A DNA stretch of 64,000 nt, taken from contig JAJEKV010000030.1 in NCBI GenBank assembly GCA_021234155.1, forward strand, positions 4,384,050-4,448,049. The letters are read 5' to 3'. The notes below the pieces were generated by a model. The model had not been told where the DNA came from. It did no database searches and saw only the letters and a list, made by a program, of their open reading frames with translations. This stretch comes from Isoetes taiwanensis. Taxonomy: Eukaryota; Streptophyta; Lycopodiopsida; Isoetales; Isoetaceae. Position 1 is the stretch's first letter; every line of letters begins with the position of its first letter. Shown piece by piece: positions 28,300 to 64,000 of the stretch. Made by a program: the position numbers and the translations under genes.

Positions 28300-28696
28300 G
28301 CAGAGGCCGTCTCTTCTCCTCTCCTTCTTCTTCTTCTCGTCCCTATTTCCTTTGTAGCCATAGCCAGGCCGCCGGAATGAGCCCAATCTATGTTCCCATT
28401 TCCTATTTCTCTCCTTTCCCCTGGTCCAGTTCTTCGCATTCTTTCCCTCCTCGCTTGGCCATGGCAATGCGGGATCGATTCTTGGCCCCATTCATCCGGA
28501 TTTGCATTTTCTGCGTTTTAGGTGGTTGAGCAAATCAACCTTCTCTTTGATTCTTCCTTCCCTCTCCCCGATCCGATTCTTGGGTTGTTGATTTCTGCCC
28601 AAAGCTTTGATCTTGAGGATTTCAGGCTTGGAAAACAACTTCCGTTGGTTCGCGCATCGGCAGATCGTTGTGGAGAGTCTTGTGGTGGGATTTGCA
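28300..28696 (+). promoter_or_regulatory. probable 5' leader of the TTL gene
   Basis: The stretch is CT-rich (notably 28310-28360 and 28545-28570), as plant 5' leaders often are, and lies just before the TTL start at 28697. It holds several ATGs (for example at 28377 and 28459) in other frames that could act as upstream ORFs if the transcript starts this far out. No clear TATA box was identified and the transcription start cannot be placed. Confidence 0.35.
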
Positions 28697-35960: not shown

Positions 35961-36152
35961 TATTACTAGTAATGGTGCCCAGCGTTGCTGGGCATAAATT
36001 GGGAATTTTTGTGGACTTCTTTTTATAAATCTAACATAATAGAAACCAAGCCCAACATTGTTAGTTTTAAGAGGTCATTTATGGTATTCTATGAACCTTA
36101 TCCTCTTCCATTTGCCTTTTGTTCTATCTCGAGTTTTCCTTTTTCCTTTTTT

Positions 36153-41601: not shown

Positions 41602-44296
41602 TTTTTTTTTTTTTTTTTTTGAGAGAATGAGATATTTTTTTTCATTAATTAAAGATCAGGAGATACATCGATGGCAACAGAGTGTTGCTATAATTACTAG
41701 ATGTAGCTATTATGGCAATAGCTAGTAAAGCAATTTAATAAAAACCAAAAGCAGCCAAAAGTTTAAGTGCTTGGCTATTTTAATTTTGGATGCAGTTAAC
41801 ATCAGCAAAATTAAGAGTTCAGTTCTCTTTTTGAAGTCTTCTACAACTGCTCCAAACAGCGGCTTCCGGATCCGGGTTGGATTACCCCGGAAAACACAAT
41901 TGAGCCAAAATATGTAAGAAAAGCGGATGGATTCAAAGATTGATATTTTCGGTGGTCCAGAAAGTGAAGTGGTCTCACGGAAGGCCGGTTGAAGAATGTG
42001 GTTGGTATTAGTTCCCCAAATCAAAAGCTTCCGGAAGATCATTCACACAAGAGGTAGCCATGATGAGCGTAAGATTTCCATGTGCATCGCCTTGCCCCTA
42101 TGATAATAGTAACACTCTCTAGAACTCGAATTGGTCATCTCATCATCCGCCTTTGTTGGGATTTCTAAGAACCACCAAAGAATGTTCATCTGATAGGTGC
42201 TTCTGCAGAATTCATAAGCCCATTGGATTTCCCTTACTGGAAATTCATGGAGCCTGGGAAAAATCCTGTCTGGAATTTTGGATTTCCAATCAAAGTCTGC
42301 ATAAGCATTGACCTGAGTGTCAAATTTGCTTAAGTTCCTCTCACTTGGCCAAAAACTTGTATCCATTAGGGCGGTCCGCGAGAACATCAGGTACTCTAGC
42401 ATTAAGATCAGAAAATAGGTTAGTATGCGCCTGGTAGCAGTGTAATTTAAATAACTTATAATGACCACAAAAAGAACCAATTGAATTCCACTTTTTGTCA
42501 TAGTTGTCCCCTTCAATTTGAATCCTGTGAGCAGTAGCTGAGGTTTGTAGATCATGCATAACATTAATTTTAATCCAACAGACAGAAGTAGCATAACCAC
42601 CATGAATGCATCTGTTCCTGTGTTTCCATATATTCCATATAACAGTAAAGAGTAAGGTGTTAACATATTTATCATTATTCATTAAGACATCAACCAAATT
42701 ACTTGGCTTGCTGATGGATAATATGTTTTGGCACCATGTCCATAAGGGTTCTAATTTTGGGCAGTTAAATATATGAACCAAAGATTCAGGGCAATTGCAC
42801 CCAAGAGGACAATTCACAGAAATAGGACTAAGACCATTCTTCAGTCTAGATGGATTATAATGCTTAGCAATGCTCTCTAGATTGGATAAGCTTTTGTTGG
42901 CTAGCAACCAGATAAAATATGACACTTTTGGAGGACAGTAAGAAAACCAAGTGTTTCTGTGAACTTTATCAGTTTCCTGATCATTTAGATTCCAATAGGT
43001 TTTGGCTTTTGAAGGAGCATTGTTGTCGGCTAGCAACTTATAGATCATGGAGACTTTATAGGTATATTTCCCTTTGCATGACCAATCAGGATTGGGATTC
43101 ACATTGCTAATGTTGAGGGGGAAAAGTTTGGCCTTGAAGTGTTTGAATATGCACCTATCTGAAGAGGTACCAGCAATTCTATTCTTGAGAGCAGTCCACG
43201 AGATCCAACTACCATTTGATCTGAGATCTCCAATTGAAGAAATTCCCTGTAGAGACCATTTCTTATAGATCCTGGGATGATTGATAGCAAGAGGTATGTC
43301 ATTCCGTTTAGATAAGAAAGGATTCCAGAATAAAGATGTAGATGATTGAAATAAGTCTGAACTGTTATGAGACATTAGCTTAGAAATCCTGTTCCAAGCA
43401 AGAACTAAATTTCTCATTAGAGGGGAGATATTTTTAGCAGGATTGATGTCAAAGAATATAGATGAGGGAAGTTGATGCCTGATGGAAGGATGACCTTCAA
43501 TTCCACATTTTTGGAACCAGAACTTAATAAATACTGAAGCTAGATTTTCTTTATTGAAGATAGCTCTCCAGACATGCTTCCCAGCTAAGGCCACACCCTG
43601 CAAAAATAAATTCTTACAGCCAATACCCCCCTGGGATTTTGGTCTCGTGATGTGATTCCAGCCAATCATATGATTTTCCCCCCAAATGAAGTTCCTGATA
43701 ATTCTTTCTAGCTGGAGGTAGACACTTTTAGGTGCAAGCAAAGCAGAAGAAAAGTATATATGAGAACTGGCAATCACTGCATTTGCTATAATGGACCTGC
43801 CAGCCAAAGATAAACAGTTGCCATAGGTATTTAGCTTTCTTTTGATCCGAGAAATGATAGGGGACCAGAGACCCTTGATATTAGAATCTAGAGACAAGGG
43901 CATTCCCAACAAATTGATGGCTTGAGTATTCTTGAAGCATTTAATCCCCAGAATAGACTGATTGTTTGTGTCCCCCATAATGGAACATTTATCCAAATTC
44001 AGATTAATGCCTGAGGCAGCTCCAAAGCAATTAATAATATTAAGATAATTTCCAATGTTGAGAGGATCATTCTTCAGAAAACTGAAAGAATCATCAGCAT
44101 ATTGAAGAATATTCATATCAGAAGTGTTGTCAGGTAGAATTAAGCCCTTAATATTTCCAATTTGTTGCTGGTGATTGATAACTCTGGTCAATATTTCAGT
44201 AACTGCAATGAATATGTAAGGGGCTAAAGGACAGCCTTGTCTCACTCCTCTGGCAAGGGGAAAGAAAGATCCTGGGGAACCATTAATAAGGACAGC
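41602..44296 (-). mobile_element. L1 copy L1-2, 5'-truncated, young
   Basis: Minus-strand L1 with a poly-A tail (T run at 41601-41622 on the plus strand) and a 13-bp duplication agtctaacataat at 41589-41601 and 44297-44309. The 5' end is cut within the RT, just before the GVRQGCPLAPY motif. The 3' untranslated part is about 0.7 kb. It inserted across the right end of the hairpin-ended element. Its zinc-finger tail matches the L1-1 subfamily. Confidence 0.95.
42341..44296 (-). pseudogene. L1-2 ORF2 C-terminal two thirds, open frame
   Basis: A continuous frame of about 650 codons runs from the truncation point (AVLINGSPGSFF) to a stop at 42341. It contains RQGCPLAPYIF, the catalytic YADD (QYADDSFSFL), the post-RT segment GRSIIANAVIASSHIYFSS and the CPLGC...H...C zinc finger (NCPLGCNCPESLVHIFNCPK). 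No stops or shifts were found, which fits a recent insertion. The endonuclease and the first part of the RT are missing, so it cannot be active. Confidence 0.93.
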
Positions 44297-44309
44297 AGTC
44301 TAACATAAT

Positions 44310-45350
44310 AACAATGGGTTTCCTTTGTAATTTTGTATGCTTTTCAATATGTTTTTACTATCATTTGATGATGTATTGAGTGGATGTACTAATGCATACA
44401 TCTAGAGTGCACACCGTATTCCCATGTTTTTAGTGTCACATTTGCTACGATTATTTATGTTTCACTATAGTTGGGCCTTATATCTCTTTTTATAGTTTGT
44501 ATTTTCATTTTTTTTGTTGGGGATCTACATGCAACTATCGAGCCCCTGTACTTTAGGGTTAAATTTGTTAGATGAGGTTTTTTGAGGTCACGATGCAATA
44601 CGAATTGCTCTTGGCATGTCGAATCAGGTCATCATGCTATAGGTTTGCACATTCTGATGCTGAAATAACTTGGAAGACACCTGAGAACAGGCAAGAGGTG
44701 AGTTTGTCATTGGAAAGAACCTCGAGGGGAGGCTTCTGCATTTATGGAAAAACCTCTTTAGCCTTTTCAAGATACAAAGGAACTAGATTTGAAAGAGTCT
44801 TTTCGTTGTCAGCGAAATGGGTCTGGTTATGCACCTTGTGTTGCTTCTGTTTTATAGAAAAATATCTTCGACCTTTTCAAGCCACAAAGGGGCCGTTGAG
44901 TCACAAAACAGATGATGTTGCTCCATCGATTTCATAAAATAAAGTTTCTTTCATGAGTATAATTTTTGTCAAGTCTTCTATCTCTTGCAGATAGAAAGCT
45001 CAATGATATTGTAAGCAACCACTGTTAGATTATTGTTTTGGAGTATTCCCATCATCACATATGTTCCACAATATGGTAGCAGGCCCTTCTGGATTCGTTC
45101 AAAGTCTGGAATATTCATGATGTCCTAAGAACTAATCCTCTTTTTGATTAAACATTTTTGGCCATCAGTGTTACAAAGGCCATGGTACCGGTATTCCAAT
45201 TACTACTTTATTCCGAACACGTTCAAGAGCATCCCACGTTCCAAAAACTTCCTATTTATGTTCACGGTAGAGTCTAAGTTTTATTTGGCCATTATCCTTG
45301 GCTATATAAACTTGAAAACAGATTAATCAATCTATGTGAACAACAGATCC
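44310..45350. other. no gene recognised
   Basis: AT-rich spacer; a 121-codon frame at 44572-44937 shows no known domain. Confidence 0.4.
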
Positions 45351-45361
45351 TTTATCAAAAT

Positions 45362-47382
45362 TTATTTTTTTCCAAAATTAGATGTTCCAATCTCAGATTT
45401 GGTTTTTGGAGTGCCACTCTGGGCAACCATCCAAAGCAAAAGATCAACCAACTTTTGATATAACGAATGCACAAGACGTTGTGCATTGACAATTTGGGGA
45501 CCAGTCCAAATAGGCACATCAACTGATTGTGAAGGAGCATTTGGCAGAATGTCAGCCAGCCTTTGCCACAGAGCTCTGTCCCATCGAGATAGCATACACT
45601 TAGTCTGAAAAGCATCCCAAGTCAACAAGTGCCCTGCCTCATGCCAAACACCAACTGTGAGAATACCAGCACACCTCCAATGCCTCTGAGTCAATGGATG
45701 TACAATAGCACACAGAGGCATGTGATTATCCAGAGGAATCCATCAATACAGAGAACCTACCTGTGGACACACACCTGGATTAATCTTAAATACCACATGA
45801 ACTGTCTCCCAAGAAGCAAGCAGTCCCTTCAAGAAGGGGGAAGCATTTGGATATGGACGAAGCTGATAAAAGAGACACCGAGAAAGAACTGCCCTAAGTG
45901 CCAGTTTTCCAAAAGGAATAGACTGCCCAAGTGCTTGCGCAACCAATCTCATTCCAAGCAAATGTACCATACCCACCAAGTAGTGACAAATGAACTTAGA
46001 TATCATAATTTTACTCTGTAAATGAAAGTCAATCATACCTACACCTCCAGCAAATTTTGGTTTGATACATGTGGACCAAGCGACCTTCACAACTACACCT
46101 GTCTCAGTACCTGCCCAAATGAAGTTACAGACAATTGCGACAACCTCTTGAAACTTTATTTGTGAGGCAAGCCCAGCAGATGCCATATACACATGAGTGT
46201 TGCTGAGAACATGCTTAGCAACTACTATCTGCCCTGCCAGAGAAAGCTTAGCTGTATTCCACCAAAAAAGATGCTTACGCAGGCCTTCCACTATAACATC
46301 CCATGCATCTGAAGTAGAGACATGTATACCTACAGGAATGCCCAAGAGTTTAGTGGCCTTTTCTTGAGGAGATACTCGTAAACACAGGGAGGAACATCCA
46401 CATCCAAAGTCCATAAAGCAGAGCACTTTAGCCACCCAACAAGAACCCCTGATGCCATCTTAGCAAAGATCTTGTACACCGTAGATAACAAAGTTATAGG
46501 GCGCCAATCCGAGATAGTTTTAGGCTCTTTGCACTTAGGAATAAGGGAAATGCAACCAGTGTTGATGATCTTATCCAAGCTCCTGAACTGCCGAATCTCA
46601 GAGAAAGCATTGAAGACGTCATCACCAAGCCAATTCCAATAAGCTTGGAAAAACTCTGTAGGAAAACCATCCAAGCCTGGGCACTTATTCTTCTTTAAAG
46701 TGTCTACAGCAAAATGCAAATCATCGACCGTAATACGCTGCTGTGGAAAAATAATAGGATGGATCTTAGATAAAACTGCCTCCTGCATGTCCTCTTGGAA
46801 GGGTAGAGACTGATCAGTAAAAAAAGCAAAAAAATTATCAAAAAGAAACTGCTTTAACTGTGCAGCATCAGAAATTTCAGAGCCATCAGGTAGAAGTAGC
46901 GAAGATATGGAGCTTGACACACGTCTTCTCCTTGCCGCTCTAAAGAAGAAGTGAGAGCACCTATCTCCCAATTTAAACCAATCCAAACCGGCCTTAACGT
47001 GAGCTTGAGTTGCCTGTATAGACTCAATGTTTCTTATTTCTGCCAATAACTCTTTCTCTCGAATACCTGATGAAGGGGCTTGTGAATGACATATTTGAAG
47101 CTCCATATACAAAGCTAGTAGCCGACCTCTAGTTGCCTGCACCTTCCTATGTCCCCATTGCTTAGCAAAGGATTTAACTGCTGCCAAAGTGTCAACAACC
47201 CCAAACATACCATGAAGACGAGAAAATGTAGAGGACCAGGCATGCCTGCAGCCATCAGTAAACTCTGGGTCTGACAAATATCGAGTGTTAAGCTTGAAAT
47301 AGGTTCTTGTAGCTCGTCTACGCACTGGCGCTGTAATCGAAAGCCAATGTGGATTGTGATCAGATATGGAACTATCCAACAT
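45362..47382 (-). pseudogene. L1 copy L1-3, ORF2 with RT core deleted
   Basis: Minus-strand ORF2 of a different L1 subfamily. It begins at the last endonuclease motif (SDHNPHW), then the linker and RT fingers (KCPGLDGFPTEFFQAYW, CISLIPKCKEPKTISDWRPI). It then jumps near 46390-46430 from KIFAKMASGVLVGWL to a segment leading into KATKLLGIPVG and the AGQIVVAKHVLSNTHVYMAS region. The palm motifs, including [Y/F]xDD, are absent, so an internal deletion is inferred. Frame breaks occur near 46400 and 45730. The C-terminal part (HWRCAGILTVG) continues to about 45362. No poly-A or target duplication was defined. Confidence 0.85.
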
Positions 47383-47546
47383 ATTTGTCCTTTACCCAGT
47401 AAGCCAGCAGCTATTACATTATAATACCCACGATCATGCTGATCTACTTTTGCATCTTCATTCTTGCATGAGCTCCATATATATTTCTATTCATGCTTTT
47501 CTGTTTTGTGCTTTTTGTATAAAAATGTTACATACATTTTAAAACT

Positions 47547-47624
47547 TATACGCAATTTTCCAAGCCAAAGCCGTGCTAAAAAATGTATACGCAATTTTCC
47601 AGCCCAAAACCGTGCTAAAAAAAT
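47547..47624. repeat. two tandem copies of a 39-bp unit
   Basis: TATACGCAATTTTCCA is repeated 39 bp later, with CCGTGCTAAAAAA at the end of each unit. Confidence 0.8.
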
Positions 47625-47633
47625 AAAACTGCA

Positions 47634-47762
47634 TATATCGAGTTTGATATACGTCGTATAGCCAACTCGATATATGCTATATATATCGTATATCGAACTT
47701 GATATAAGCTGTAGATATCATATATCAAACTCGATATACAACGGATAGCTAAGTCGATATAT
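47634..47762. repeat. palindromic TATATCGA-type array
   Basis: A perfect 18-bp inverted repeat, TATATCGAGTTTGATATA at 47634-47651 and its reverse complement at 47721-47738, brackets a third variant copy (47689-47706). Direct copies of GATAGCxAAxTCGATATATG-type sequence lie at 47656-47676 and 47742-47762, so inverted and direct repeats alternate. It could form a cruciform. Confidence 0.7.
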
Positions 47763-47769
47763 GATTGGT

Positions 47770-48880
47770 TTTGAATGTATAGTTAGGGTGCCAATAGTAG
47801 CACCAGATGAAGACAACTGATGTTTAATTAGGCTATTGACATTGCTAGATGATTGTAAGTACATGGTTTGTTGATTTGCAAGCTGCTTGGGATCATTTCA
47901 GGAACCGTTATTTGAAGTTTCTGAACACTCTTCTACAAATTGAGATTTATGGCCCAACAAATCACATAATGGTTTGTCTTCTGGCATTTGGTGAGTGAAT
48001 GTCTGTTTGCAACAATCTTAACAAAATCAAAGTGAAGGAAAACAAATATGAAAACACCAAATACTATTGTCGATGGACAAATTATAGGTATGTACAAATG
48101 CTCTGTTTATTATTTCCTACTACAAGATGTTGTAGAAGCACATAATGCTGCAAATTCTATTCATAGAGTATTTAGTCATGGATATTTCTATTATCTTTGA
48201 TGGATATGTTTGTGATAGGCTTAGATACCTATAAGCTAGTGTTAAAGCATATTTGATTTGTGTTTGTTTGATGCGGCATCCCGTCATGCTAATGCACATC
48301 ATTGTATTTCAAAACGCTTGTATTTTCAAGCAACGATCGCATCTTCAAAAAATGTTCGCTACATTTTACATCTTTAAAGAAACGATAGTATTTTAATAGT
48401 AATAGGGGATGAAAAATAGGTAGATGAGGATAGGAGTACAGAGGGTGAAAAGCAGTTTTTCGGGCCAGAGAGGGCCATGGTTGTAACCAGGCTACAGGAG
48501 GAAGAGAGTGGTTTGTTGATGAAGAGAGCGTTAGCGCAAGACATTGTGGACAAGATAAATGCTATTCAAAAGGGCGTGCTCGGAAACTTCACGAAGAAAA
48601 TACATGACCGAGTTCTAGGACTGCAAGCACAAGCTAGAAAAGGTTGGGGACATCAACAGTCCCATGGGAAAGGAGGAATTAGAGGGATACTTGCTGAAGC
48701 TCAAGAAGGAAGTGATCTGGGCATTGTATTGGAGCAAATCCTAAGGAAACGGGAGGTCTGGAGGGCCAATGGGTAAAAACACGCCATTATCACTCAATTT
48801 GACGCCATATTTTTGTACACTTTCTGTAGTATAATTGGGTGGCTGCATAGCAATGCAGAGATTGTGGGAGTGCAGTATAA
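47770..48880. other. no gene recognised, one unknown ORF
   Basis: A 99-codon frame at 48477-48776 (VTRLQEEESGLLMKRALAQD onward) is lysine/glutamine-rich and looks helical but matches no family I know. It lies shortly before LINE-B copy E; a link is possible but unproven. Confidence 0.3.
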
Positions 48881-48883
48881 TGA

Positions 48884-49597
48884 TTGTCGATTATTTCGAA
48901 TTTTATACCACGTCATTGCCCCTCTTTCCAAATTAGGAAAGGAATCATATGCCTTCTATCGCCTCCGCACAAGCTGCAGATGCTCTGGGATGCAGATGCT
49001 CTGACGCACGTTAAGCTGGCACACTATCAGCAGCAAGTCAATCCTAGGCTCACGAGAGGCCCACAACAGTACTTGTACACCCAGCTGCCCATGAAGAAGC
49101 GCAGACTTATAGCTTCCATTCGCACGGGTGCACATCGCCTCCGCATTGAAACAAGGCGTTGGGCTCGGGAAGCACGAGAGCAAAGGCTTTGCCAGTGTTG
49201 CCACCAGGGCGCCATTGAGGATGAATGTCATGCCCTCCAGATCTGCCCAGCATTTGCCCATATCCGAGAGCGATATGTTCGATTACTAGTGCCTGGCCAG
49301 CAGTTGCATCAGTTATTGACTACGGCGTCAGTGGGTTTGTTGGGGTCATACCTCCAGGAGGTTATGGATGCACGGACTTAGTTGTGCCCTGTGGAACGGT
49401 ATTGAACTGTCCTATACAATTGTACAGCGTGCCAGCATACTTATTACTGCTAAGGTTTTTCCCTCGAAAACCCTTCGGGGCGGGGGTTTTTTAATCATGT
49501 CAGTAATACGCTTGTTGTTCTCTTTTTTGTTTAGGTCCCATAGGCCAATTGGTCTCCGTGGACGATAAAAATCTATTCTATTCTATTATATTTTTTT
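48884..49597 (+). mobile_element. LINE-B copy E, best-preserved 3' part, (TATTC)n tail
   Basis: An open frame to 49381 keeps the C-terminal zinc finger: LCQCCHQGAIEDECHALQIC, i.e. C-x2-C, then H-x4-C, followed by PAFAHIRERYVRLLVPG. The region before it reads PMKKRRLIASIRTGAHRLRI. The conserved 3' end follows: TTATTACTGC, the AAAACCC-TTCG-GGG hairpin, CAGTAATACGC, GGTCCCATAGGCCAATTGG and CTCCGTGGACGATAAAAATC. It ends in a short TATTC repeat (49571-49590). Confidence 0.85.
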
Positions 49598-49599
49598 GC

Positions 49600-49692
49600 C
49601 GCTTCTTTTTTATTGAACCCTAATGAATTCAGAGTTGAATACCACTAGATACACGATGAAAGAAGCTTTCGTCCTTCAAAAAAAAAAAAAGG
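49600..49692 (+). mobile_element. possible L1 3' end with poly-A
   Basis: TTCGTCCTTC followed by A14 (49679-49692) resembles L1 3' ends in the window. It immediately follows LINE-B copy E. Too short for assignment. Confidence 0.25.
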
Positions 49693-50316
49693 AGCTTTGG
49701 GACAAATAAATCTAGCTACAGATATTTTCTCCCAAATGTTTCTTCAAGACTGAAAACTTAAGGCGTGTCTTTTATTGTAGAGGTTGAAGAATCTGAGCAA
49801 TGAATAATATAAGGAGTTTATGCAAATTTACAAAAGAATTACAGGAAAGCCACACACGTGGGATGGAATGGCTCCTAGAACTTAGGCAGTGGCTTATTAT
49901 CTGCATATAAAAGGGGAGGCTATTAATTGGAAGAGCTTTTTGGATTATTACAATGAAAAAGCAGAGGCCAACTCTTCTAGACCCAAGAGAAAGTATAGGC
50001 AAATCCAACCTGAGCAGGAAGAATGAAAGTGACAGAGATGACGAAGATGATGGGGAAGAAACCAAGTTAGGTTTACCTAGACGGCATATTCAATCTGAAT
50101 TCGCAATCAAAATAGAGCAATGTTTTTGTGACACTCCCCGAATCTATACGATGCTTCTATCATACAAATATGGGAAATTCCTCTCCCATAACGACTCCAT
50201 CACCACGAAACAGCCCTTCATATAACTCGGACTACTTGTGATGGCCAAGTGACCGGTTGAAGGACACGGCGGTGTCATTCGTCCCATGCCTTCTATGGGA
50301 ATCCTATATAGCGGAA
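49693..50316. other. no gene recognised
   Basis: A 90-codon frame (49953-50225) with an acidic stretch shows no known domain. No repeat recognised. Confidence 0.35.
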
Positions 50317-50325
50317 GCGTACATA

Positions 50326-50327
<2 letters not shown>

Positions 50328-50410
<83 letters not shown>

Positions 50411-50537
50411 ATTGAAGGCGTGGTTGGTGGGACTTGCACCCACCCACGTCTCCCACTCGATGGTAGCCAGTGGGTTTTGAACCCTGGTGGGGATCACCCC
50501 AATCCAAGGCCTTATCACTAGACCACCACCGCGATGG
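50328..50537 (-). mobile_element. tRNA-derived SINE with (GA)n tail
   Basis: Flanked by an 11-bp duplication gcgtacataca at 50317-50327 and 50538-50548. On the minus strand it has a pol III A-box-like TGGTCTAGTGATAAGG (50509-50524) and a B-box-like GGTTCAAAACCC (around 50472-50483), the internal promoter of tRNA-derived SINEs. A short unique body follows, then TTCAATAAAAAA and about 39 GA units (plus-strand CT run 50328-50405). Tails of plain A, or of mixed repeats, are usual for plant SINEs; the long GA run is probably an expansion. Confidence 0.8.
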
Positions 50538-50548
50538 GCGTACATACA

Positions 50549-52325
50549 TGTTAGCACCTGGCAACAATACAAATAAATAATATGCTACCACGAAGGGTGG
50601 CTCATCCAACATCAATGTGTACGGCAATCTAACACCAACATAACATCGGAAATGCATCATAAATGAGGATTCTACCCCGGGCTCAGACTCAAGGGGGTTG
50701 ATTGATGGTCAGGGCCTCTAGATAACAACAGAGAAAAGCATAACATGGCATTGGCTGGCATAGAACAATGGCTAGGGTAGTCCACTCCATCCGCCCCTCC
50801 TGTGCCACTTTGCAGACATGCTGAAACATGCTATGGCGTGATTGTAGTCTTCTGGAGACGCAATCTCATGGAATCACCCTATGGGACTACTTCAGATTAC
50901 ATCTCCCGGCCCGATGAGACAGGTTAGGAAGTCGTCCCCTCCCCGGGCACAATCGATCCTTGGGTGTGCTAAAGGACACGTGCCACATCAACAACCCATC
51001 CATCCATACCCGACTTACTCCCCTAAATCTAAAGGCTGGCTCACCATGCTCGTTCGAGTTAAGGATGCTCAAATAGCCATATCCTGTATCCCAGGGAGTG
51101 TCAGACCCATATCCAGCCCCTTCAGTGACCGACTATAATCCTAGCACACTATAGGAATCCTGTAGCCATGCTAGGCAAGATCCCAGCCCCATTTCACCAT
51201 CATACCCATTATCTGGTGCTGAATCACAACATAGCATCCACAGCCAGGTGGGCTCTTGTGCACAGGATGCATCTAATGGGATTTAAGGGGTTCTAGCTAG
51301 GAGCATATCTAATCCTATATGGCCTTTAGGCCTCTACCCTCCGAAATAGAACATTCATATCCGATACATCGATTGTAATCTCATCTAGAACATAAAATAG
51401 AGAGACTAATCATCCATCTAACAAGCAAGGGTTAGTTCCTAACTAGAATCTCAAGCTAACTAAGCCTACTAACCGGTATTCGAGCTAGATCTCCAATCTC
51501 TCAAGTTCTCCATGCCCTGCTGGTTGAATAAGCTCCTCCCCCTTCTCCAATTGCCCCCAGTTCGAATTGGGAGAAATTGGTGTGAAAGCCCCAATTTGGA
51601 TGTCCCAAAGTTAGCAGGTCTGCCTTGCCCAATCGATTTAGGCCAGGTGGCAATTCTAGATTGGTTATCATTAATTAATTTCATATTTTAGCCTTTTTAA
51701 TATTAGGTCAAGCCCTACATTCGAATTAGGGTTTAGGGTTGGGTTTCCACCTTAATAATTAATGAGTTAACATAGCTAACCTTAGCTTATGAATAATGAA
51801 TGCACCATTAATTATTCCTAGTGATGTGTCATATATTTATACCTAAAAAGGCATATAAATACGTGGAACATTACATCCCCTCCCCCCCCCAGCATCTAGA
51901 CAAGTCTATAAGAAATACGGGTTAGGCCGTGGCAACACATCACATATTACAAGGAAAAGTCTCCCCTCCTTAAGGAAGGCAACACAGGACCGAACGATAC
52001 GGGATAGTTTTAGAATTCAAATAACTTGGAAGGAATTAGCAAAATGCTTAACAAATTGCTAAAAGATGTTATTGAAAATCCAATGCACAGAGATTATAAG
52101 TTGCACAGAGATTATCATCTTCAAGGTGATCAAAGTTGAAAATGATGTGAAAGGTGCAATTCATAAGTCTGAGAGGATTCATGACTGTTAGTGAGCTATT
52201 AATGTTATTAATATCAAAAGACTCTTAAAAAGATGACACATGTTGCGTAGCAACCCTTTTTCATGCATGGGAGTAGCCAGTATTGTAATGTGGATTGACT
52301 CGAGTAAATTGCATTGTTAGAAAAT
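50549..52325. other. no coding gene; possible LTR-like DNA
   Basis: No ORF of note. Composition is richer in GC at 50.7-51.6 kb. Near 51873, on the minus strand, a G-rich run leads into TGTAATGTTCCACG. That resembles the junction of a gypsy pol end or purine tract with an LTR start, but no second LTR is seen. Recorded only as a possibility. Confidence 0.25.
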
Positions 52326-52340
52326 AAAAGTCCTGGGTTT

Positions 52341-53404
52341 TAAGTTCAAAGTCTATTTGAACCTATGGATACACCTAGGGAGGCTGGTAAGCTAAGCATT
52401 TTTTGGAACATACAGATCTGGTCCAGAAATAGACTCCCCCCTAGCTCTTCTACACCCTCGCATTTTCACTAAATGGAGGCAGTCTGGATTTACCAGAGTG
52501 GGGCATCTATGGGATGGTATGAGGTGGCTCTCTTGGTCCCGTTTCAAGAACATGATACGTAATGCAGGGGAGGGAGACAGGAAGATCTTCTCTGAAATTC
52601 GCGCCACCTTGGATATCCTCTCAGGTAAGGATGGCCCGAGTGACCGTTGGAGCTGTAAGGGGGAAGAGAAATATGTTGTTAGTACTCTCTACCGCCTTCT
52701 CTGTGCAGGCTCCCCACAAAAAGCAGCTGATAGGTTGGATGTTAGTGTTGCTCAAGCTACACAACTCTTAGGTGGTTCATCGGCAACCCTTTGCTCAAAA
52801 CGTTTGCAAGTCTTTAGATGGGTGGCTTTACAGGGGGGCCTCAACACTATGGTGAGACTTTATCAAATGGGGATCTGCCCTACTGACTAGTGCCCACTTG
52901 GCTGTAGTACTGCAGAATCCCTTACACATCTATTTTTCTGTCCCAAGCTGTTAGACTTCTGGGGATGGGTGAGCCCCATCATTGGTGTTAATGCGCTACA
53001 ATGGCCTGAAATAGTAGTGGTATCAAATGGAGATATACTTTCAGCGTCTCTTGTTAACATTGTTCTATGGGCAATTTGGAAACATCGATGCGGAATTGCC
53101 TTGGGTGGGCAAAAATTTTCTTTGGTTAAGTTGAAAAATATTTTCAATTTGGAGGTGGCCCTTATGGCATTAGCTCATCATCGAAAGTTTGGACGTAATT
53201 ACAACAAAGTTCTAGACAGGATTGGCAAAGTTCAAGGATTCTACTTGTTTTTCAAGTGTCACTGGTTATCTGCGGATAATCAGGATCAGGATTTGCAGAG
53301 GTTACTCCATGATTGATTCGGTAGTAGGGTTTCTTCCCTTTATAATCCCATATAAGGGATACTTGTATAATATTTACTATTAATTAATATATCATACTCT
53401 TACC

Positions 53405-53432
<28 letters not shown>
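52341..53432 (+). mobile_element. L1 copy L1-4, 5'-truncated, 1.1 kb
   Basis: Flanked by aaaagtcctgggttt at 52326-52340 and 53433-53447. The exact edge within the A run is ambiguous. It ends in a ~30-A tail preceded by CTTACCCT. It contains only the ORF2 C-terminus and a short 3' untranslated region, and belongs to the L1-1/L1-2 subfamily by its zinc finger. Confidence 0.93.
52498..53316 (+). pseudogene. L1-4 ORF2 C-terminus with one stop
   Basis: The frame reads through the typical RWSCKGEEKYVVSTLYRLL segment to a TAG at 52888-52890. It then continues in the same frame with the zinc finger CPLGCSTAESLTHLFFC, IVLWAIWKHRCGIALGGQKF and a terminal stretch to 53316. The single stop sits immediately before the zinc finger. 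A non-coding relic. Confidence 0.88.
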
Positions 53433-53440
<8 letters not shown>

Positions 53441-53447
53441 TGGGTTT

Positions 53448-55410
53448 GCGGAAACAAGGTACATTGTATAAAACAATGAGTCCCTGAGGTTTTAGTTTAG
53501 GTGTGAATTAAGCATGACCTATGGAAAAGCAAGAACGGTGGGGGCAGTCATACGACTACTCCTAGGAAGCTGAGCTAGGTAAAGTTTGACTAGAGGGTGA
53601 TGACTAAGTGGAATATTAAATATCCGATGAGTACATAGGGAATGTCAAGACGACATTGTTACAAGAAGGAAAACTATTTTGTAATCCTTGAGCAGCTAAG
53701 TGACCCCATAATCATGTGGAATATATATGAGAGCTCGGGTAGAAGTGCTAAACGTTGGAAATAAGGAGTGGTAAGGTATCCTTATTTTGGATCCATACCC
53801 GAGAGAATTGCTTGCACGATGTTTGTGATCCCATTAAATCACTGGAAGTTAAGCGACCCATAATGGTATACTTAATAATGACGAGGATTAATTTGTCATG
53901 TGGCAGATATATTGCTGTTCAACGTAAAAGGATAGTGGATATAGCACCATGTAATTGAGGAAGAAGTGATGTATGATTATCTGCCATAGAACATGTTAGA
54001 GAGGTACTATACTAATGTGGAAACTGGATTATAAATATTCAGCTTATAAAAGGGAGATCACTGTAGATGTGTAGGTTTCAACAATGGTAGTCAAGGTATA
54101 AAATGTTTATGCTATAGAAGCTAGAAGATTAATGGCGTATAACGACACAGATCCATAAACTATAGATTATAAAATTACGCATAAGTTGCATTTCGTAAGT
54201 ATGCATGAGTAAGACGAGAATGTAGTCACGTGGATAAGGTTAATGATGTTGATCAAATGCATGGCCATCATGCATGGTACAAGTTAAGGGCATGGACACA
54301 TCATGTCTCCGCTGGGAGCAAAGGGGCGCCGACTAGAAGACTGGACAATAGTGTGGAACGTAGTTTCTACACAAGGTCAAGAGAATCGAGGTCGAATTGA
54401 GTGAAGGCAAGAATAAGCGTTCTATAAGACCGTTGGAATGGGAAATGACAATTGCTAGCATATGGCGCAATCGTCTGAAAGTATAGGTGTGCTGGAGCTT
54501 TGGTGAATGATAATGTGCCCAATGAACATCTCACCAAAGAGAATGTGCTCTGGACTTCGTACTATGTATATCTCGAGGAGTAACTCCTTGTTGGTATATG
54601 CGTACTAGGTCGATTTAATGGTGAAGCATAACAACAAAAAGAAAGGGTGTATAATAGAACTTTTAGTTCACAGTCCGTATACTGTACGAAAATAATGAAG
54701 ATAAGAGTTCTTATACTAGACGTCTCTCACTGTGGAATTTGTGACTAGAGCTTGAGGATGAAGTCGAACTAGGGTTGGAGAGTCTAAAAAGTGTGTTGTC
54801 AAAACCACAACATGTATATGGTACAAGATAAACGAGTTGAGAAAATATGTTTGAGGCAGCAGAAAGTTGATTTTTTTTTTCTTAGTAATTTGAAGGAATA
54901 TACCTAAGTTGAATAATCCAGACTATTGAAACTTTAGCTGGGTTACCTTGGTGAAAAACTAACAAACAAAGGGATCCCCATAAAATCCATAGGGTAAACT
55001 ATTGTGGACTTAACTTTATTTCCTAAAACCTAGAAGAGGAAATGAGACCGTCAAGAGTTAAGTCGAAGTTTAAGGGCAAGTTGCTGTTACGAAGAGGATG
55101 CTGCTACTGTCATGCTGCACTGCTGCCAGCATGTAAGAGCAACTTCACAAGAAAACACAAAAAGATCAAAACACATTTGCAAAGCATTTCTATTTGGAGC
55201 TCATTGTTTAGGTATGAAGACAAATCTTTACACCAATTTGAAGACCAATGGAGAACGTTCAAAGGAGCATTCAAGTTAGCAAAAGTAAGCAAGACTTGAG
55301 TCAAAGGTTGGAAAGGAAGTAAAAAAGAGAAGACCCCTAGTCAAAGATTGGAAGACCCCAAAAGAAGTATGTTGTCTTGCCAACTTTTGAGATTTTCACA
55401 CTACCTTAGG
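53448..55410. other. no gene recognised
   Basis: No open frame of note and no family recognised. It may be decayed LTR-retrotransposon sequence, but no motif proves it. Confidence 0.35.
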
Positions 55411-55511
55411 GATATTGGCTAAAAGAGGCATTGCTCACATCTATACTCATCCTTCATGCCCATTCCTCATTTCATTCATCACATTTCCATGGCTCAAAGT
55501 TTTTTCTCTAG

Positions 55512-56351
55512 GGCAAAATCTCACACACCACATATTTCATACATATGCACCATGTACATCACACACACACATCATGATCCATGACCATGCACTTGACAAG
55601 TCATTAGAAGCACACTCTCTCTCTAAAAAAGAGAAAGAAAGAGGAGAGAAGCTCCACTAGTCCATTACATGACCAATTCAAGACCAAAGGATGGGCCAAA
55701 AATCAAATCCCAAAGGTCCAAAGTTGACTAGTCGAAAGAAATCAATATCTAGTGCCACCTCACCTTCAAAAGTCATGCACACATCATCCACATCATCACC
55801 AACTCACCCAACACGTGTCACCCACACCTTGTCACACTTCATCAAGATTTTACCTAGGGAAAATTTCTTTGACACCTTGCCTTCCACCTCACCATGCCAC
55901 ATTATCAGCATTTGCCTAGTCATCTCTTTTTTCCCTTGGGCAAAATCTCACACACCACATATTTCATACATATGCACCATGTACATCACACACACACATC
56001 ATGATCCATGACCATGCACTTGACAAGTCATTAGAAGCACATTCTCTCTCTAAGAAGGAGAAAGAAAGAGGAGAGAAGCTCCACTAGTCCATTACATGAC
56101 CAATTCAAGACCAAAGTATGGGTGAAAAATCAAATCCCAAAGGCCCAAAGTTGACTAGTTGAAAGAAATCAATATCTAGTGCCACCTCACCTTCAAAAGT
56201 CATGCACACATCATCCACATCATCACCAACTCACCCAATACGTGTCACCCACACCTTGTCACACTTCATCAAGATTTTACCTAGGGAAAATTTCTTTGAC
56301 ACCTTGCCTTCCACCTCACCATGCCACATTATCAGCATTTGCCTAGTCATC
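55512..56351. repeat. 426-bp tandem duplication
   Basis: Two adjacent copies, starting at 55512 and 55938 (GGGCAAAATCTCACACACC), differ at only a few positions. They are rich in CA and TCAC and each contains a purine-rich stretch (AAAGAGAAAGAAAGAGGAG in the first). The high identity points to a recent duplication. It probably lies in the 5' LTR or leader of the gypsy element that follows. Confidence 0.92.
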
Positions 56352-57198
56352 CCTTCATGAAAAATCATGCAAAATGGTGGTCAAAGATTCTCATTTTGAC
56401 CACATCTAGCCCTAGTTTTAGTGGTTCTCGGGATGCGCGCCCTACCCTAGTTGTGCTAACATTTGGCTTAAACTACCCCCCAAAAATCCATGTCACACCC
56501 CAACCAACTATATTCAGCCGCATGGAACCAAGCCTATTTTTCGCCAAATGCCTGTGGGATATATCCGTTTTTGTGAAGAACCCTAGAATCATGGCAAGAT
56601 CCGAAAAATTAGCCCAACCAACTGGCAAATCATGATTAAACAGGCCGGATTTAGCCCTTTGATGCCAAGAATCTCGCTAAAAATTGTTAAAAACTCATTT
56701 ATTAATGTTAGACAAGAGCAAGGCCACGATAAAGGGGATTATTCGAAAAGGGGGCTTCACTTTGAGGAAGAAATCATGATTACTACACCACAACCGATTG
56801 ACTTGCAAATCAAGAAGTTATTTACAGGCGGAAGAGGCAAAAACTGATCTGCCTTATCAAGAACTGACCGGAAATTGTTAAATTTAAGAGGTCATTGAGG
56901 TTTCAGAATTTTTTCGAGCACCCCAGCGCCTTGAGTGATCCAATCCTGCATGCTACTGTTGGGAATGACCTCTGCTTGCCCTGTACTGCCTCCTTGTGTC
57001 AGATTTCTTGAAGATCTGGTGCAATAAAGTCCTTTAATATATTACCTTTGTTTCTTTCATTCTATGAATTTCTCCATGTCAAATTACTGGGAAATTTTCT
57101 CATTGTAATTCTTGAAGGCTCCTTTGAATGAAAATTTAAAGTTGATGAAGATCATGTTTGCTATTCCTGAATATCAAATCTTGCTAATTCAATTGGTG
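56352..57198 (+). repeat. probable 5' LTR end or leader of the gypsy element
   Basis: The stretch ends with an AATAAA-containing segment (GTGCAATAAAGTCC near 57020), then AT-rich sequence ending TTGCTAATTCA, and runs into a possible primer-binding site. That is how plant gypsy LTRs end. The left edge of the LTR was not found, and no matching 3' LTR is visible in the window. Confidence 0.3.
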
Positions 57199-57199
57199 C

Positions 57200-57217
57200 T
57201 ATAGCAGTGTCTGAATC
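57200..57217 (+). other. weak candidate primer-binding site
   Basis: TTGGTGCTATAGCAGTGT follows the CA-ended putative LTR. It weakly resembles the TTGGCGCCGTTGCC-type site used by Athila/Tat-like elements (roughly 10 of 18 positions). Not decisive. Confidence 0.2.
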
Positions 57218-58003
57218 TCAACAAGAAGCGCAACTATGGTTTGTATAAGTTGTTCTTTAGCAAAAATCTCAGCCTGAAGTGTTTGTTCAATACTACATCA
57301 TTAGGCCAGTCATAAACTCCTCAAAAAACCAAAAAAAAAAAGTCGAGTCAAATAGTGTTTTATACTAGATTTTAATCATCTAGAGCTTGTTTTTCATCTC
57401 TTGTAGGCCATCTCCATCATTCAAAAGCTAAAAAGTCGTGTAAAGCCACAATCCAAAACATCTTCTTCAACTCTGTCACAGACTGTTACAAAAAATCCAT
57501 AAAAATGGCATTTGTACACATTACTGCATATTTTCTGTTGTCTCTACATGATGCACATGTCCTCTAGGTTAGGTTGAAAGTGTCAAAGAAAGAAACAAAA
57601 AATATGCTCATAAATTCTCATCTATAAATTTTAGCTCTCTGACAGGGTTATTGACTCAAAATTGACCCAGTCAGGAAGCTGTTTTTCACCTAGCTCTGGT
57701 CAACCATTTGCCTCTGACTTTTATAAGTATCTTCTGGACTCCTTGAGCATCGATTGCAGCTGTTCCCAACAAAAACCAATCATCCCACTTCATTTGGCAA
57801 ATAATTTTTGGCAAACAGTTTTTTCTTGTTTAGGGACAGGTTGTTCACAAGCTAGTTTGAGTTGATTTGTGCAGGGATTTGGCCACAGGTTGGTTGCCTT
57901 AAGCAACCTGGAGGTTCTCAACCACTAAGTTGAAGGTTTGCCAGGTACACCTTCAACATTTTGGAGGTTCCACCGAGATCACATCACCTGGATCTTGGAA
58001 CTC

Positions 58004-59297
58004 ATGGCTCCCAGGAGAATTGTTGATGCTGCTGAACATACTGAATTACCAGAAAACCTTGAATCATCATCAATACCACATGTCACACTGCCAAATGGTT
58101 CAGGCATGCCCTGCACATATTTCGAGCTGAATATTCCTACTCATGTCCCCACTTTTGATCCAAGCATCAATGCCAATAACTTTCTGAGTGGCTATAAGAA
58201 AGGGAGTAAGTTTGCTGAATTTAAGAAATGCTTCAAGAATGAGGAAGTTAGAGCTTGGTTAGAGTATGTGATTAGTGATGGTGGTAACACTTGAGAGGAA
58301 ATTGTCAGGAAATTCTTGGCCAGGTTTGGAAAGCTTCTTGAGCCACAAGATCTAGTCTTTGAGCTGTAGAACTTTCACATCAAAAATGGTGAAACAATTC
58401 ACCAATACGTTGAGAGGTTTAATTGCTACCTCACCAAGTGCCAAGTGCACAAGGTACCTAACCACACTTTACATTTGGTTGCCTCTTTTATCAGGGGATT
58501 AAGCAGCAGACCTCGAAGTCTCTGAAAAATCTTTGAAGGCTGCGGAGGCAAGAAGGTTTTGACACCATACACAAAGCTTTCACGAGATCCATTGAAGCAT
58601 CTGAAATGTTGGCCTACCTCCCGATGACACGCAAAGCTTCAAATGGCCCTTTTTCCACGATTATGATCAATAATATATAGGATGCGCCCCCGCATTACTG
58701 TCTATGCCATTCAAAAGGAGAAAAAAAACTAAGGCCCGATGATGCAAGGCTGTGCGAGTCGGACATGAGAGCGGATCTCAACAAAGTCACTCAGGCCTTG
58801 ACTGAGGGACCAAACAACTCATGGAAATGAAGGCCAGCCAACTAGAAAGGAGAGTTTACCCAGCATGTGCTTACTGCACCAGAAACACCCATTCTTCAGA
58901 TTATTGCTGGTATAGGACATGTCTAAAATGTGGTAAGAAAGGGCATTATGGTAAGGAATGCCCTCTTTGTACTTTCTGCAAAGCTATAGGACACTATGAA
59001 GATAAATGTAGTGTTAAAGAAAATTTTGCTAGACAAGAGAAGGCTAAGGCTATTGAGCCAAGTGCATCTGTCAAGTTTTTGCAGGATGAAAGATGTTTTC
59101 CAAGACCTGAGCCTAGTGCTTCCATCAGATATTTGCAGGAAGAAAGCAATTCATTGCACTTTGAGGGTGAAAGCTTTCAAAAAGAAGAGGAGATCATGGC
59201 TGTGCACACAAGGGGAGCCCTAAATGCCAAAGGCAAAGAAGCAGAGTTTGAGTCTCATGGACAAGAGGTGCAGAAACTAAAGCAAGTTGATAATTAG
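58004..59297 (+). pseudogene. gypsy gag, capsid and three zinc knuckles
   Basis: Starts ATG at 58004 (MAPRRIVDAAEHTELPENLE). The retrotransposon-gag core (FLARFGKLLEPQDLVFEL, then NFHIKNGETIHQYVERFNCY) is broken by stops at 58292, 58367 and 58523 in one frame. After a shift, the frame at 58821-59297 carries three CX2CX4HX4C zinc knuckles in a row (residues 16-29, 34-47 and 50-63 of that frame: CAYCTRNTHSSDYC, CLKCGKKGHYGKEC, CTFCKAIGHYEDKC). The knuckles bind the element RNA during packaging. An acidic tail follows. Confidence 0.85.
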
Positions 59298-59389
59298 GTT
59301 GTATCTCCTCCTCCTCACCAAAAATTTCTAAAAAAGGATAGTGATGAGTTTGAATATCTGCTCAAAAATGCCAAAGTAAGTGTAGACTG

Positions 59390-59995
59390 TTGACTTTGCT
59401 AAGAATTGCTCCTTCTTATAGAGAAAAGGTTGTAGATATGTCCAAAGAAGAGCAGGTAAACCTCACCAGAGAAGAGCAAGTGGTTTTTACTAACCATATA
59501 GCTGAGCAAATGCTAAGACAAGAAGAGCATGATTCTGGTGCCTTCACCTGCACAGCAAAAGTTGGTAATCAGACCCTAAACAAGGTATTATTAGATGGGG
59601 GATCACCTTTGAATGTCATGCCACATCATATTATGAAACTAAGTGGGTTGGAGGTGGACAAAAAAGCCCCTCTGGTCCTGAAATCTTTCTCCAACTCAAG
59701 AATCAATCCTGTAGGCATGGTAAGTGATGTAACAATTGATATTGAAGGAATCAAGGTAGCTGCTAATTTTGTTGTGGTAGCATTTGAGGGAGCTAATGAA
59801 AGGTCAGAAATTTATGACTTATTATTAGAAAGAAGATGGCTATCAACTGTGGATGCAAGGCCAGTTTGGTCAAAAGGAGAGTGCACCATCTCGGATGGTA
59901 GAAGGACTGTTACACTTTTCAACAAACTGGGTGAGTACGAGTCTTACCACTTCATTCAAGAGGAGATGTTAATTCCCAGGCAAATTGGAGAGTAG
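59390..59995 (+). pseudogene. gypsy aspartic protease
   Basis: Retropepsin domain that would process the polyprotein. The active-site segment reads VLLDGGSPLNVMPHHIMKLS, with D-G-G in place of the more common D-S/T-G; this variant occurs in Tat/Athila-type plant elements. The flap and second half (VSDVTIDIEGIKVAANFVVV, then YDLLLERRWLSTVDA) are present. The frame ends at a TAG (59993-59995) and continues in the same frame toward the RNase H, so one base change separates them. Confidence 0.85.
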
Positions 59996-60064
59996 TTTAT
60001 TGAGACTAGAGGAGGAGATGCACCTTATAACCTACAAGTAAATCTTGTAAAAGAAAATCTGCCC

Positions 60065-60991
60065 TTGGAAGTACACAAAGGTATGCTTAAGGAAGTAAGT
60101 GCTTACATGTGGTTTGATGGGGGTGTATTAAAAAGGCTAAGCATTGCTTCATCTGCTGCAATCATAAAAGACAAAGACAACAGGTTGCTAGCCAAAGTAG
60201 GGAGGATCTATCAGAATCTAACTTCAAACATGGCAGAATATAAGGCACTAATTGCAGGTCTTCAAGAAGCTAACCATTTGGGTGTTACTAACCTTGTTAT
60301 CCTTGGAGATTTACAACTCATATGCAGGCAGATTGAAGGGAAATATCAGGCAAAGCATGAAGAAATGGTGAAGCTCAAAGATCAAGCATTGGAGGCACTA
60401 GCAAAGTTCACAACCTGGGAACTGCAGCACATACCTAGAGAGCTTAACTCTGAGGCAGATTCCCTATGCAGAGATGTACTAATGGAGCATCTGCCTGAGG
60501 AAGCTATCAAGGAGGAAGATCTGGAAGATGAGGAGCTTCAGCAACTCTATCCAATCTTAGTAATCAATGCCAGCTCTGAAAAAGAGGTAAAGGAAATCAA
60601 GATAAGAAAAAACAATGAAGATAGAGTCTTATATGTAGGAGACATGTTCAAAGAAGAGGAAAGGGAAGCATTTGTAAGTTTCTTTAAAACTTGGAATGAT
60701 GTTTTTGCTTGGGATTATAAGGAACTGTTAGGAGTTAATAAGAGTGTTTGTGAGTTTAAGATCAAGATAAAAGAAAAATCAAAACCAGTTGTGCAAAAAC
60801 TTAGAAGAGAACTCTTCAAAATGAAAGATGCTGGAGTTATAAAGGAGATAATTAACCCTGACTGGCTGTCTTGCATTCTACCAGTTGAAAAGAAGAACAA
60901 AACCATAAGGATATGCATTGATTACAGGGATTTGAACAAGGCAACAATAAAGGACTGCTATCCTCTACCTTTTCTTGAGGAAGTATTGTAG
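60065..60991 (+). pseudogene. gypsy RNase H domain fused upstream of RT
   Basis: One open frame holds two domains. The first is an archaeal/plant-type RNase H. Counting from 60065, the likely catalytic acids are D18 (WFDGG, 60116-60118), E58 (NMAEYKAL), D82 (ILGDLQLI) and D132 (NSEADSLC), all present, with the expected HIPRELNSEAD context. RNase H would remove RNA from the RNA-DNA hybrid. The second is the N-terminal RT (FFKTWNDVFAWDYKEL, KDAGVIKEIINPDWLSCILP, IRICIDYRDLNKATIKDCYP). A TAG at 60989-60991 interrupts the RT. Continuity of the two domains in one frame argues against a chance rearrangement. Confidence 0.87.
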
Positions 60992-62825
60992 GCAGTTGCA
61001 GGAAAGGAGGTATACTCATTTTTGGATGGTTTCTCAGGTTTTAACCAGATTAGTATCAAGGAAAGATCAAGCCAAGACATCTTTTGTCACACCATGGGGA
61101 ACTTTTGCCATGAAGAGAATGCCCTTTGGGCTTATGAATGCATCTGCCACATTTCAAAGAGCAATGGACACCATTTTCAAGGATATGGATCCTAAGTTTT
61201 TCAGAGCTTATGTGGATGATCTTTGTGTCAATGCCAAGCTAGAAGATCACATGACTTATCTCACACAACTCTGTTCTTTGTGCAGGAAAGGAGGAGTGAG
61301 TTTAAACCCTAAGAAATGCGTCTTCTTTTGCTCAAAGGGGAATCTACTTGGACATGAGATCTCAAATCAGGGGATTCAGGTGGCAGAAAGCAAGATCCAA
61401 GCTCTCAGAAACTTAACACCACCCAAGACTATCAAAAAAGTTAAGAGCTTTTTAGGAATGACAAGCTTCTTAAGGATGTATGTGCCACATTTCTCTCACA
61501 CAGTTCATCCCATTACAAACTTGACGAAGGGAAAGAAGTTCTCAAAAAAGGAAAGCAAGTTCATACCTATAGAGTGGACAGAAGCATGCCAAGCTTCCTT
61601 TGAAGCAATCATTGAGGCCATTTGCAAATCAACCTTGCTTAAGCCACCAAACATGTCTGAGCCCTTCCAAGCCTACCTGAGTGTAACCAAAAAGGCTGTA
61701 GGCCTTGCCTTAATGCAGGGGGATGACATTGTAACTTTCTCCAGCAAAATATGGTCTGATATTGAAATGAGGTATGCTAGGCTTGAGAAGAGTGCAACAG
61801 CTTTGATGTATTTATTTGATAAACAGGGACACCTGATCCAAAGTAGCAAGACTCAAGTGTACATGAAGCAAAATCCACTGCCCCTACTCTTTGCAAAGAA
61901 GCTACAAAAAGCCAAGCTGTGCAGGTGGGCTTGCAGAGTGCAAGATTATGATATAGACATTCATGTAACTCTCAAATCTAAGGATCCTAGTTCTTATCTT
62001 AAATATATTTTGTTTAAGTATGAAGACTTGGAGGATCTAGATGGCACTCACATGGAGGCTACAATTAACCTACTTGAGGAGGAGAACTGGCAACATGCAA
62101 TTAGGGAGTACCTTGAAAAAGGAGAGCTGCCAAAGAATCAGAGCCCGAGCCAAAACAGGAGATTCAAGGACAAGGTCAAGAAATTTAGGCTAATTGGTGA
62201 TGTTTTATGCAGGGTAAACAGAGAAGGTGTCTTACTAAGGTGTGTGGACAAGTTTGAGGTAGAATTGGTGTTAAAGGCTTGCCATGAGGGTGTATGTGGA
62301 GGTCACTTTGCTGCAGACACAACTGCTAAAAAGATACTCAGGTCAGGTTACTATTGGTCTTCAATCTTCAAAGACTGCTTTGAAAACATTAGAAGTTGCC
62401 ACAAATGCCAGATCTTTGGAAAGAGAATCCTCCAGCCTGCTCCACTGACAGCCATAATGTCTCCAGGACCCTTTCAAGTCTGGGGATTGGATTTTATGGG
62501 GCCTATAGATCCTCCTTCTTCTGATCAGCATGAGTTTATACTGGTAGCCACAGATTATTTCACAAAATGGGCAGAAGCAGTGCCATTGAGACAAGCAAAT
62601 GCCCTAACAACAGCCAGATTCCTTCATGAAAATATCTGTGCCAGATTTGGGTTCCCCTTGAAGCTAATATCAGATAGAGGTTCACAATTTGTTTATGAAG
62701 TGATTGAGCAGCTACTCTGCACCCTCAAGATCAAACACACAAAGAGTTCAACATATTATCCCCAAGGAAATGGTCAGGCAGGTCAACAAACAAGGTACTT
62801 AAGTCAATTCTGCAAAAAACAGTAA
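60992..62825 (+). pseudogene. gypsy RT, dead RNase H, integrase
   Basis: RT motifs continue: SFLDGFSGFNQI, a frameshift near 61060, FVTPWGTFAMKRMPFGLMNA, and the catalytic YVDD at 61209-61220. The C-terminal RNase H (about 61650-61890) lacks the catalytic acids: the usual Y-T-D-A-S site reads YLSVT, and the usual T-D-H site reads MKQN. The integrase has an HHCC zinc domain (KACHEGVCGGHFAADTTAKK onward to SCHKC) and two core acids (GLDFMGPI, ISDRGSQF). A one-base loss at 62781-62782 falls where the third catalytic acid should be encoded, and the frame stops at 62823. Confidence 0.87.
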
Positions 62826-63362
62826 GCATATCCAAGAAAGACTGGCATTTGAGATTAACTGATGCATTATGGGCCTACAGAACTAATATAAAGCATGCCA
62901 CCAAGCATACCCCATTTAGTTTGGTTTATGGCATTGAAGCTGTCTTACCTAAAGAATTAGAGTTGCCTTCTTTAAGAATGGCACATATTATTAACCTCAA
63001 AATGGAAGATGCTCTGCAAGACAGGTTTATTAGGTTGATGCAACTTGAGGAGCACAGGTATGATGTTGAAAATGCAGTCTTGCCGAAAAAAGGCTAAGGA
63101 TGTGGCAGCATTCAAAGCTGCTCATAGATTACAAGGTACCATGAAGATAGGAGAACTCGTGCTGAAATGGAACAAGGCCAGAGAGAAAGTTGCAGGGAAG
63201 TTTGAGAATTTGTGGGAAAGACCCTATGAAATCATTGGTGAGGCTGGCAAGGAGTCTTATTAGCTCAAGGATCTCACTGATGGCCCAGGAACTGCCAAAT
63301 CCTTTCAATATCCTTCACTTAAAGAGGTACTGGCAACAGCATGTTGCCTTAAGCCTATTTGA
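62783..63362 (+). pseudogene. gypsy integrase C-terminal part
   Basis: After the shift, another frame continues the integrase core (ALWAYRTNIKHATKHTPFSL, VYGIEAVLPKELELPS) to about 63085. A second shift leads to the C-terminal segment (GELVLKWNKAREKVAGKFEN, LWERPYEIIGE). A TAG (63261-63263) lies within the usual end motif. No chromodomain is seen. Confidence 0.8.
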
Positions 63363-63523
63363 ATAGTCCTGCGTGCAGAAACTAGGTAGTTGTAGGTTAG
63401 ATCAGATTTAACTAGGCCTAGACTTACTTTTTTATGCAAACAACACTTTCCTTACTTCCTAATCATGTTTACTTCTCAGCAAAAGCAGCAAAAGGAGCTC
63501 CAAACATGCTTAAACCAATGCCA

Positions 63524-63551
63524 CGGTTCTATTGCGATAGCAATAGAACCG
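63524..63551. repeat. perfect 12-bp hairpin with 4-base loop
   Basis: CGGTTCTATTGC, loop GATA, then its exact complement. It lies between the end of the gypsy pol and a gene-like CT-rich region. It could be the end of a small transposon or a transcribed hairpin. Confidence 0.75.
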
Positions 63552-64000
63552 ACATTCCTTGGATGGGGACGCCCTACCTTGCATTTCCTATTTATATCGC
63601 CTTCTTCCTCTTTTCTCGTCATCGGCGTTCTCTTGAGTTCCTTTCCATTCTCCTCATTTCTGGCTCCACAAGTCTCTCCTCAACCTCTTCCTACTATCCT
63701 ACTAGCCCCCGTTGTTTCTTTCCCCTACTAAATTTTTGGATCCAGCCTCAGGTTCGTTCCTTCTCCTTCTTGTCATCTCATTGAATTCGTGTTATCTTTG
63801 CCCCTGTTCTATGGATTATCAATCATCCCTCGCCAAGAACCTGCAGCTTCTGCTCCTTTGATTGGTTGGACACTTCGATCTATGAGTAGCAGTGGAGGTC
63901 GTTTGGTCCAACATGGAAATAGTGGAATACCGTTTGATACATTTTGTTTTTGTCTATCACTCCATATGTTCCTTCTAATCACTTAGTCTTGCAGATTTAT
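63552..64000 (+). other. possible promoter and leader of a gene beyond the window
   Basis: A TATA-like TTTATATCGCC near 63589 is followed by a CT-rich stretch (63600-63780), the look of a plant 5' leader. The last bases have an acceptor-like CTTGCAG. No known protein is recognised, so this is a weak suggestion. Confidence 0.2.

Follow-up and report, generated by a model that had tools for sequence, protein, structure and literature searches.

A decayed Ty3/gypsy retrotransposon, very probably of the Tat lineage, with an additional RNase H upstream of reverse transcriptase

We analysed a stretch of 64,000 nucleotides (the window) and found on its + strand, at 58806-63363, the remains of a Ty3/gypsy element: from 5' to 3' a zinc knuckle, a protease-like ORF, an RNase H, reverse transcriptase (RT), a second, degraded RNase H and integrase. 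Since this domain order and the matches of both the additional RNase H (aRH) and the RNase H after RT (native RH) agree with the TatI/TatII layout, as far as the excerpted text of Neumann et al. 2019 (PMC6317226) describes it, the element is very probably a decayed Tat-lineage LTR retrotransposon with the layout PROT-aRH-RT-RH-INT (TatI/TatII; structure #2) residing in a land plant. This layout is already known. The first-pass annotation of this DNA was therefore right in what it observed and mistaken in regarding the arrangement as unusual.

Results

Layout of the element

The order of the domains can be read directly from the positions collected in the table below. The single ORF 60951-62825 carries RVT_1, RT_RNaseH/RT_RNaseH_2, Integrase_H2C2 and rve in the Ty3/gypsy pol order (Pfam), and the best solved match of a query spanning RT and native RH was the Ty3 RT. 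In the gag piece Pfam also detects the first knuckle, as a single zf-CCHC stretch whose 19.2 bits (E 0.0013) narrowly miss the cut-off of 20.8; the second is recognised by its motif. The protease-like ORF matched Peptidase_A2B (E 0.033) and Asp_protease_2 (E 0.077), both below cut-off, and no solved protease in the PDB at E <= 1; its position and DGGS motif hint at a protease. A Pfam scan of two of the three C-terminal pol pieces gave no relevant match and no chromodomain.

Features of the element at 58806-63363
Feature	Position	Strand	Evidence or remarks
gag C-terminal piece	58806-59297	+	two CCHC knuckle motifs, 58920-58961 and 58968-59009
protease-like ORF	59354-59995	+	DGGS motif (LLDGGS from 59588); terminates in the aRH frame
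additional RNase H (aRH)	60113-60475	+	RVT_3 E 1.3e-23; D, E, D, D and arginine present
aRH catalytic motifs	FDGG 60113, AEYK 60233, GDLQ 60305, PREL 60434, EADS 60452	+	
RT, N-terminal part	60794-60991	+	aRH frame; Ty3 RT 4ol8 E 9.8e-8 over 60794-60985
RT, remaining part with YVDD (within 61206-61223)	61062-61361	+	different frame; RVT_1 E 6.5e-15, Ty3 RT E 1.9e-28
native RNase H, tether-like, catalytic acids probably lost	61575-61949	+	RT_RNaseH_2 1.9e-15, RT_RNaseH 1.3e-13 (Pfam)
integrase zinc-binding domain and core	62247-62762	+	Integrase_H2C2 1.7e-10, rve 9.4e-12
C-terminal pol pieces, several frames	62708-63366	+	ORFs 62708-63097, 63039-63263 and 63166-63366; placed by position

Chance was rejected as the source of the long reading frames. 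In 200 mononucleotide shuffles of 57401-63400 the longest stop-free frame on the + strand was 162 codons (median 91), compared with 331 and 624 codons here.

The upstream RNase H keeps its catalytic residues

Both the aRH and the N-terminal part of RT lie in one stop-free frame of 331 codons, 59996-60991. The RVT_3 match of the aRH scored 83.6 bits (cut-off 21.6). When 60056-60535 was compared with the PDB by phmmer, six distinct sequences were retrieved at E <= 0.01, four of them named ribonuclease H. The other two bear the locus names Rv2228c (the best match, 6.5e-16) and ST0753; we take these to be type I RNases H and the matched group to be archaeal-type. In the alignment with Rv2228c the residues D, E, D, R and D are identical in the aRH, so that its catalytic residues are seen to be intact. 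Judged from the arginine together with the solved RNase H matches, the aRH would be of archaeal type, an arginine at the aligned place being described as the mark of archaeal-type RNase H in the excerpted text of PMC5348765. Structure prediction from the single sequence was poor (mean pLDDT 40.4).

The first-pass annotation had placed a complete RNase H with D, E, D and D between protease and RT, in one frame with the RT N-terminus, and the RVT_3 match, the Rv2228c alignment and the ORF 59996-60991 bear this out. The profile search that it suggested (Pfam) likewise located RVT_3 upstream of RT, with RVT_1 and RT_RNaseH/RT_RNaseH_2 downstream.

The RNase H after RT is degraded

The region at 61575-61949 is by sequence similarity clearly a homologue of the LTR-element RNase H; we identify it as such because of its Pfam matches and because the longer RT-RH query matched Ty3 RT. 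When the native RH piece alone (61548-61985) was searched against the PDB by phmmer, no RNase H was retrieved at E <= 10, and the three matches obtained were unrelated. This lack of a solved match fits strong divergence and is the weakest point of the identification. The structure predicted from the single sequence was again poor (mean pLDDT 37.4). A Pfam scan of 60951-62822 (E <= 0.1) detected only RT_RNaseH/RT_RNaseH_2 and no RVT_3 between RT and integrase.

In the alignment with Ty3 RT we observed that the first catalytic aspartate of the native RH is replaced by S. Canonical Gypsy RNases H carry the motifs EKE and TDH and a final aspartate in an ADALSR-like motif. At the corresponding positions the native RH has EKS for EKE and MKQ for TDH, and the ADALSR-like final aspartate is missing. 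Going by position in these motifs, the loss probably extends beyond the first aspartate to all four catalytic acids. The earlier description of a dead RNase H lacking both aspartates was thus correct and, if anything, slightly understated.

The copy is decayed

The element is interrupted by stops and frame breaks. A stop at 59993 separates the protease-like ORF from the aRH, which otherwise share one frame; the frame breaks near 60991 and at about 62.8 kb. Both gag and the end of pol are scattered over short frames.

No LTR pair was seen within the 64-kb window, which ends about 640 bases past pol. Direct repeats of at least 40 bases in 48000-64000 formed one family, a tandem duplication with 427-base spacing, and none of the nine repeat pairs of at least 80 bases found by self-BLAST of the whole window flanks pol. 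When 63361-64000 was compared with 45001-59000 at high sensitivity, the six matches obtained (14-23 bases, E 3.7-9.9) were weaker than the best one of the reversed control (E 0.51). The best site for a plant initiator-Met primer-binding motif in about 52-59 kb, at 53018, had mismatches at three of 12 positions. The majority of OTA elements contain extensive non-coding regions, according to the excerpted text of PMC6317226, so that the 3' LTR may be situated past position 64000.

Two further observations concern the 5' side. By eye, a TGG-starting stretch at 57194-57207, behind a possible polyadenylation signal (about 57023), is a candidate PBS following a 5' LTR. A 427-base unit is duplicated in direct tandem at 55500-56355 (97% identity), about 2.5 kb 5' of the gag knuckles; this tandem unit possibly belongs to the 5' region of the element.

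Further copies were sought in the window and among viral contigs. In the window all five pol queries, which stop at 62822, matched only themselves by tblastn (E <= 0.01). Among the viral contigs there were nine pattern matches for the aRH and three for integrase, none of which was confirmed by tblastn, and no pattern match for RT.

Other features of the window

Within 28592-32275 lie gene fragments that carry TPR repeats and a terminal thioredoxin region (E 0.00025, below cut-off); we take them to resemble plant TTL proteins. L1-type non-LTR elements lie at 3444-7231 (+) and 42344-44299 (-). RVT_1 and zf-RVT are present in both, and an endonuclease domain was found only in the former. One strand of 36001-38000 is very rich in pyrimidines (GC skew -0.70, AT skew -0.67; about 84% C+T by the skews). 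It contains numerous short, degenerate C/T-rich repeats and leaves long stop-free frames, of which the one scanned with Pfam, 36288-37868, gave no match.

Discussion

The position of the aRH had been called unusual in the first-pass annotation. It is, however, a published one: in the excerpted text of Neumann et al. (PMC6317226) the order PROT-aRH-RT is characteristic of TatI, from clubmosses, and TatII, from gymnosperms, whereas the aRH follows integrase in TatIII and lies between RH and integrase in Ogre/Retand. Biryukov and Ustyantsev (2023, PMC10508981) analysed 92 green plant species and described five aRH-bearing layouts from 43 genomes. Their structure #2, which places the aRH ahead of RT, ranks second in frequency among the Tat layouts and was found in three clubmoss species and in all gymnosperm genomes studied; degradation of the native RH is common to every Tat structure that bears an aRH. 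The statement that plant dual-RNase H elements carry the added domain between RNase H and integrase therefore holds for Ogre/Retand (structure #1) but not for TatI/TatII or structure #2. Nor does the position give support to an independent acquisition of the domain, as had been suggested. The 2023 study favours a single aRH acquisition followed by recombination between elements and rejects as unlikely the multiple independent acquisitions that the same authors had proposed before, though the aRH tree is poorly resolved (PMC10508981).

We considered whether the aRH segment could be a nested insertion or chimera private to this one copy, the element normally having its aRH elsewhere or none at all. 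The copy is decayed, and neither tblastn of five pol pieces against the window (E <= 0.01) nor the search of viral contigs revealed a second one, which would leave room for such an event. Yet one stop-free frame runs through the aRH into the N-terminal part of RT, this frame extends upstream through the protease-like ORF but for a single stop, and the layout in PMC10508981 and the excerpted text of PMC6317226 has the identical order together with a degraded native RH. We regard a private insertion as extremely improbable. It is also very unlikely that a Gypsy lineage other than Tat, whether similar to the oomycete elements Chronos and Archon or of a new kind, gained an aRH upstream of RT independently. 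As described in the excerpted text of PMC5348765, the aRH of Archon adjoins the native RH and Chronos combines the dual RNH with a chromodomain, a domain that Pfam did not detect in the two pol-end pieces scanned here. Genes and elements elsewhere in the window are plant-like, and every aRH-bearing LTR element of the 92-species survey fell in Tat (PMC10508981).

These points favour the Tat assignment, and within Tat the subclade is most likely TatII, with a gymnosperm as host. We place the element in a land plant because of the TPR-thioredoxin gene pieces, the L1-type element with zf-RVT, and the presence of Tat in land plants and its absence from the 40 algal species surveyed (PMC10508981). 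There is a slim chance that the host lies outside the gymnosperms and clubmosses, for example in an angiosperm or a fern; if true, this would widen the known range of PROT-aRH-RT.

In a working element, the archaeal-type aRH would cleave the template RNA as reverse transcription proceeds, and the degraded native RH may remain as a tether that no longer cuts but helps to hold the RNA/DNA hybrid. Such a division of labour between aRH and native RH has been argued for Tat in the cited papers by analogy with retroviruses. The layout bears on the question why retroelements have time and again acquired a second RNase H while the first becomes inactive. Both the question and the layout are already in print (PMC10508981 and the excerpted text of PMC6317226), and one decayed copy adds nothing decisive.

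Compared with known systems, the element is closest to TatI/TatII and structure #2. It shares with TatI and TatII the aRH between PROT and RT and the degenerated catalytic core of the post-RT RNase H; no difference in layout is visible in the excerpted text of PMC6317226, and this copy differs by its stops and frame breaks. The structure #2 clusters Tat E and J (gymnosperms) and F and G (clubmosses) have the same aRH position upstream of RT and a degraded native RH, and the full DEDD of the aRH here is also found in the aRH of dual-RH lineages (PMC10508981). The element agrees with structure #2 in every layout feature that could be tested, and no layout difference was seen. Ogre/Retand likewise combine an aRH with a degraded native RH but differ in the place of the aRH, which is that of structure #1 (PMC6317226, excerpted text). 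The oomycete elements Archon and Chronos also have a dual RNase H with an archaeal-type aRH and a degraded native RH, according to the excerpted text of PMC5348765; unlike in Archon, the aRH of the element described here is separated from its native RH by RT.
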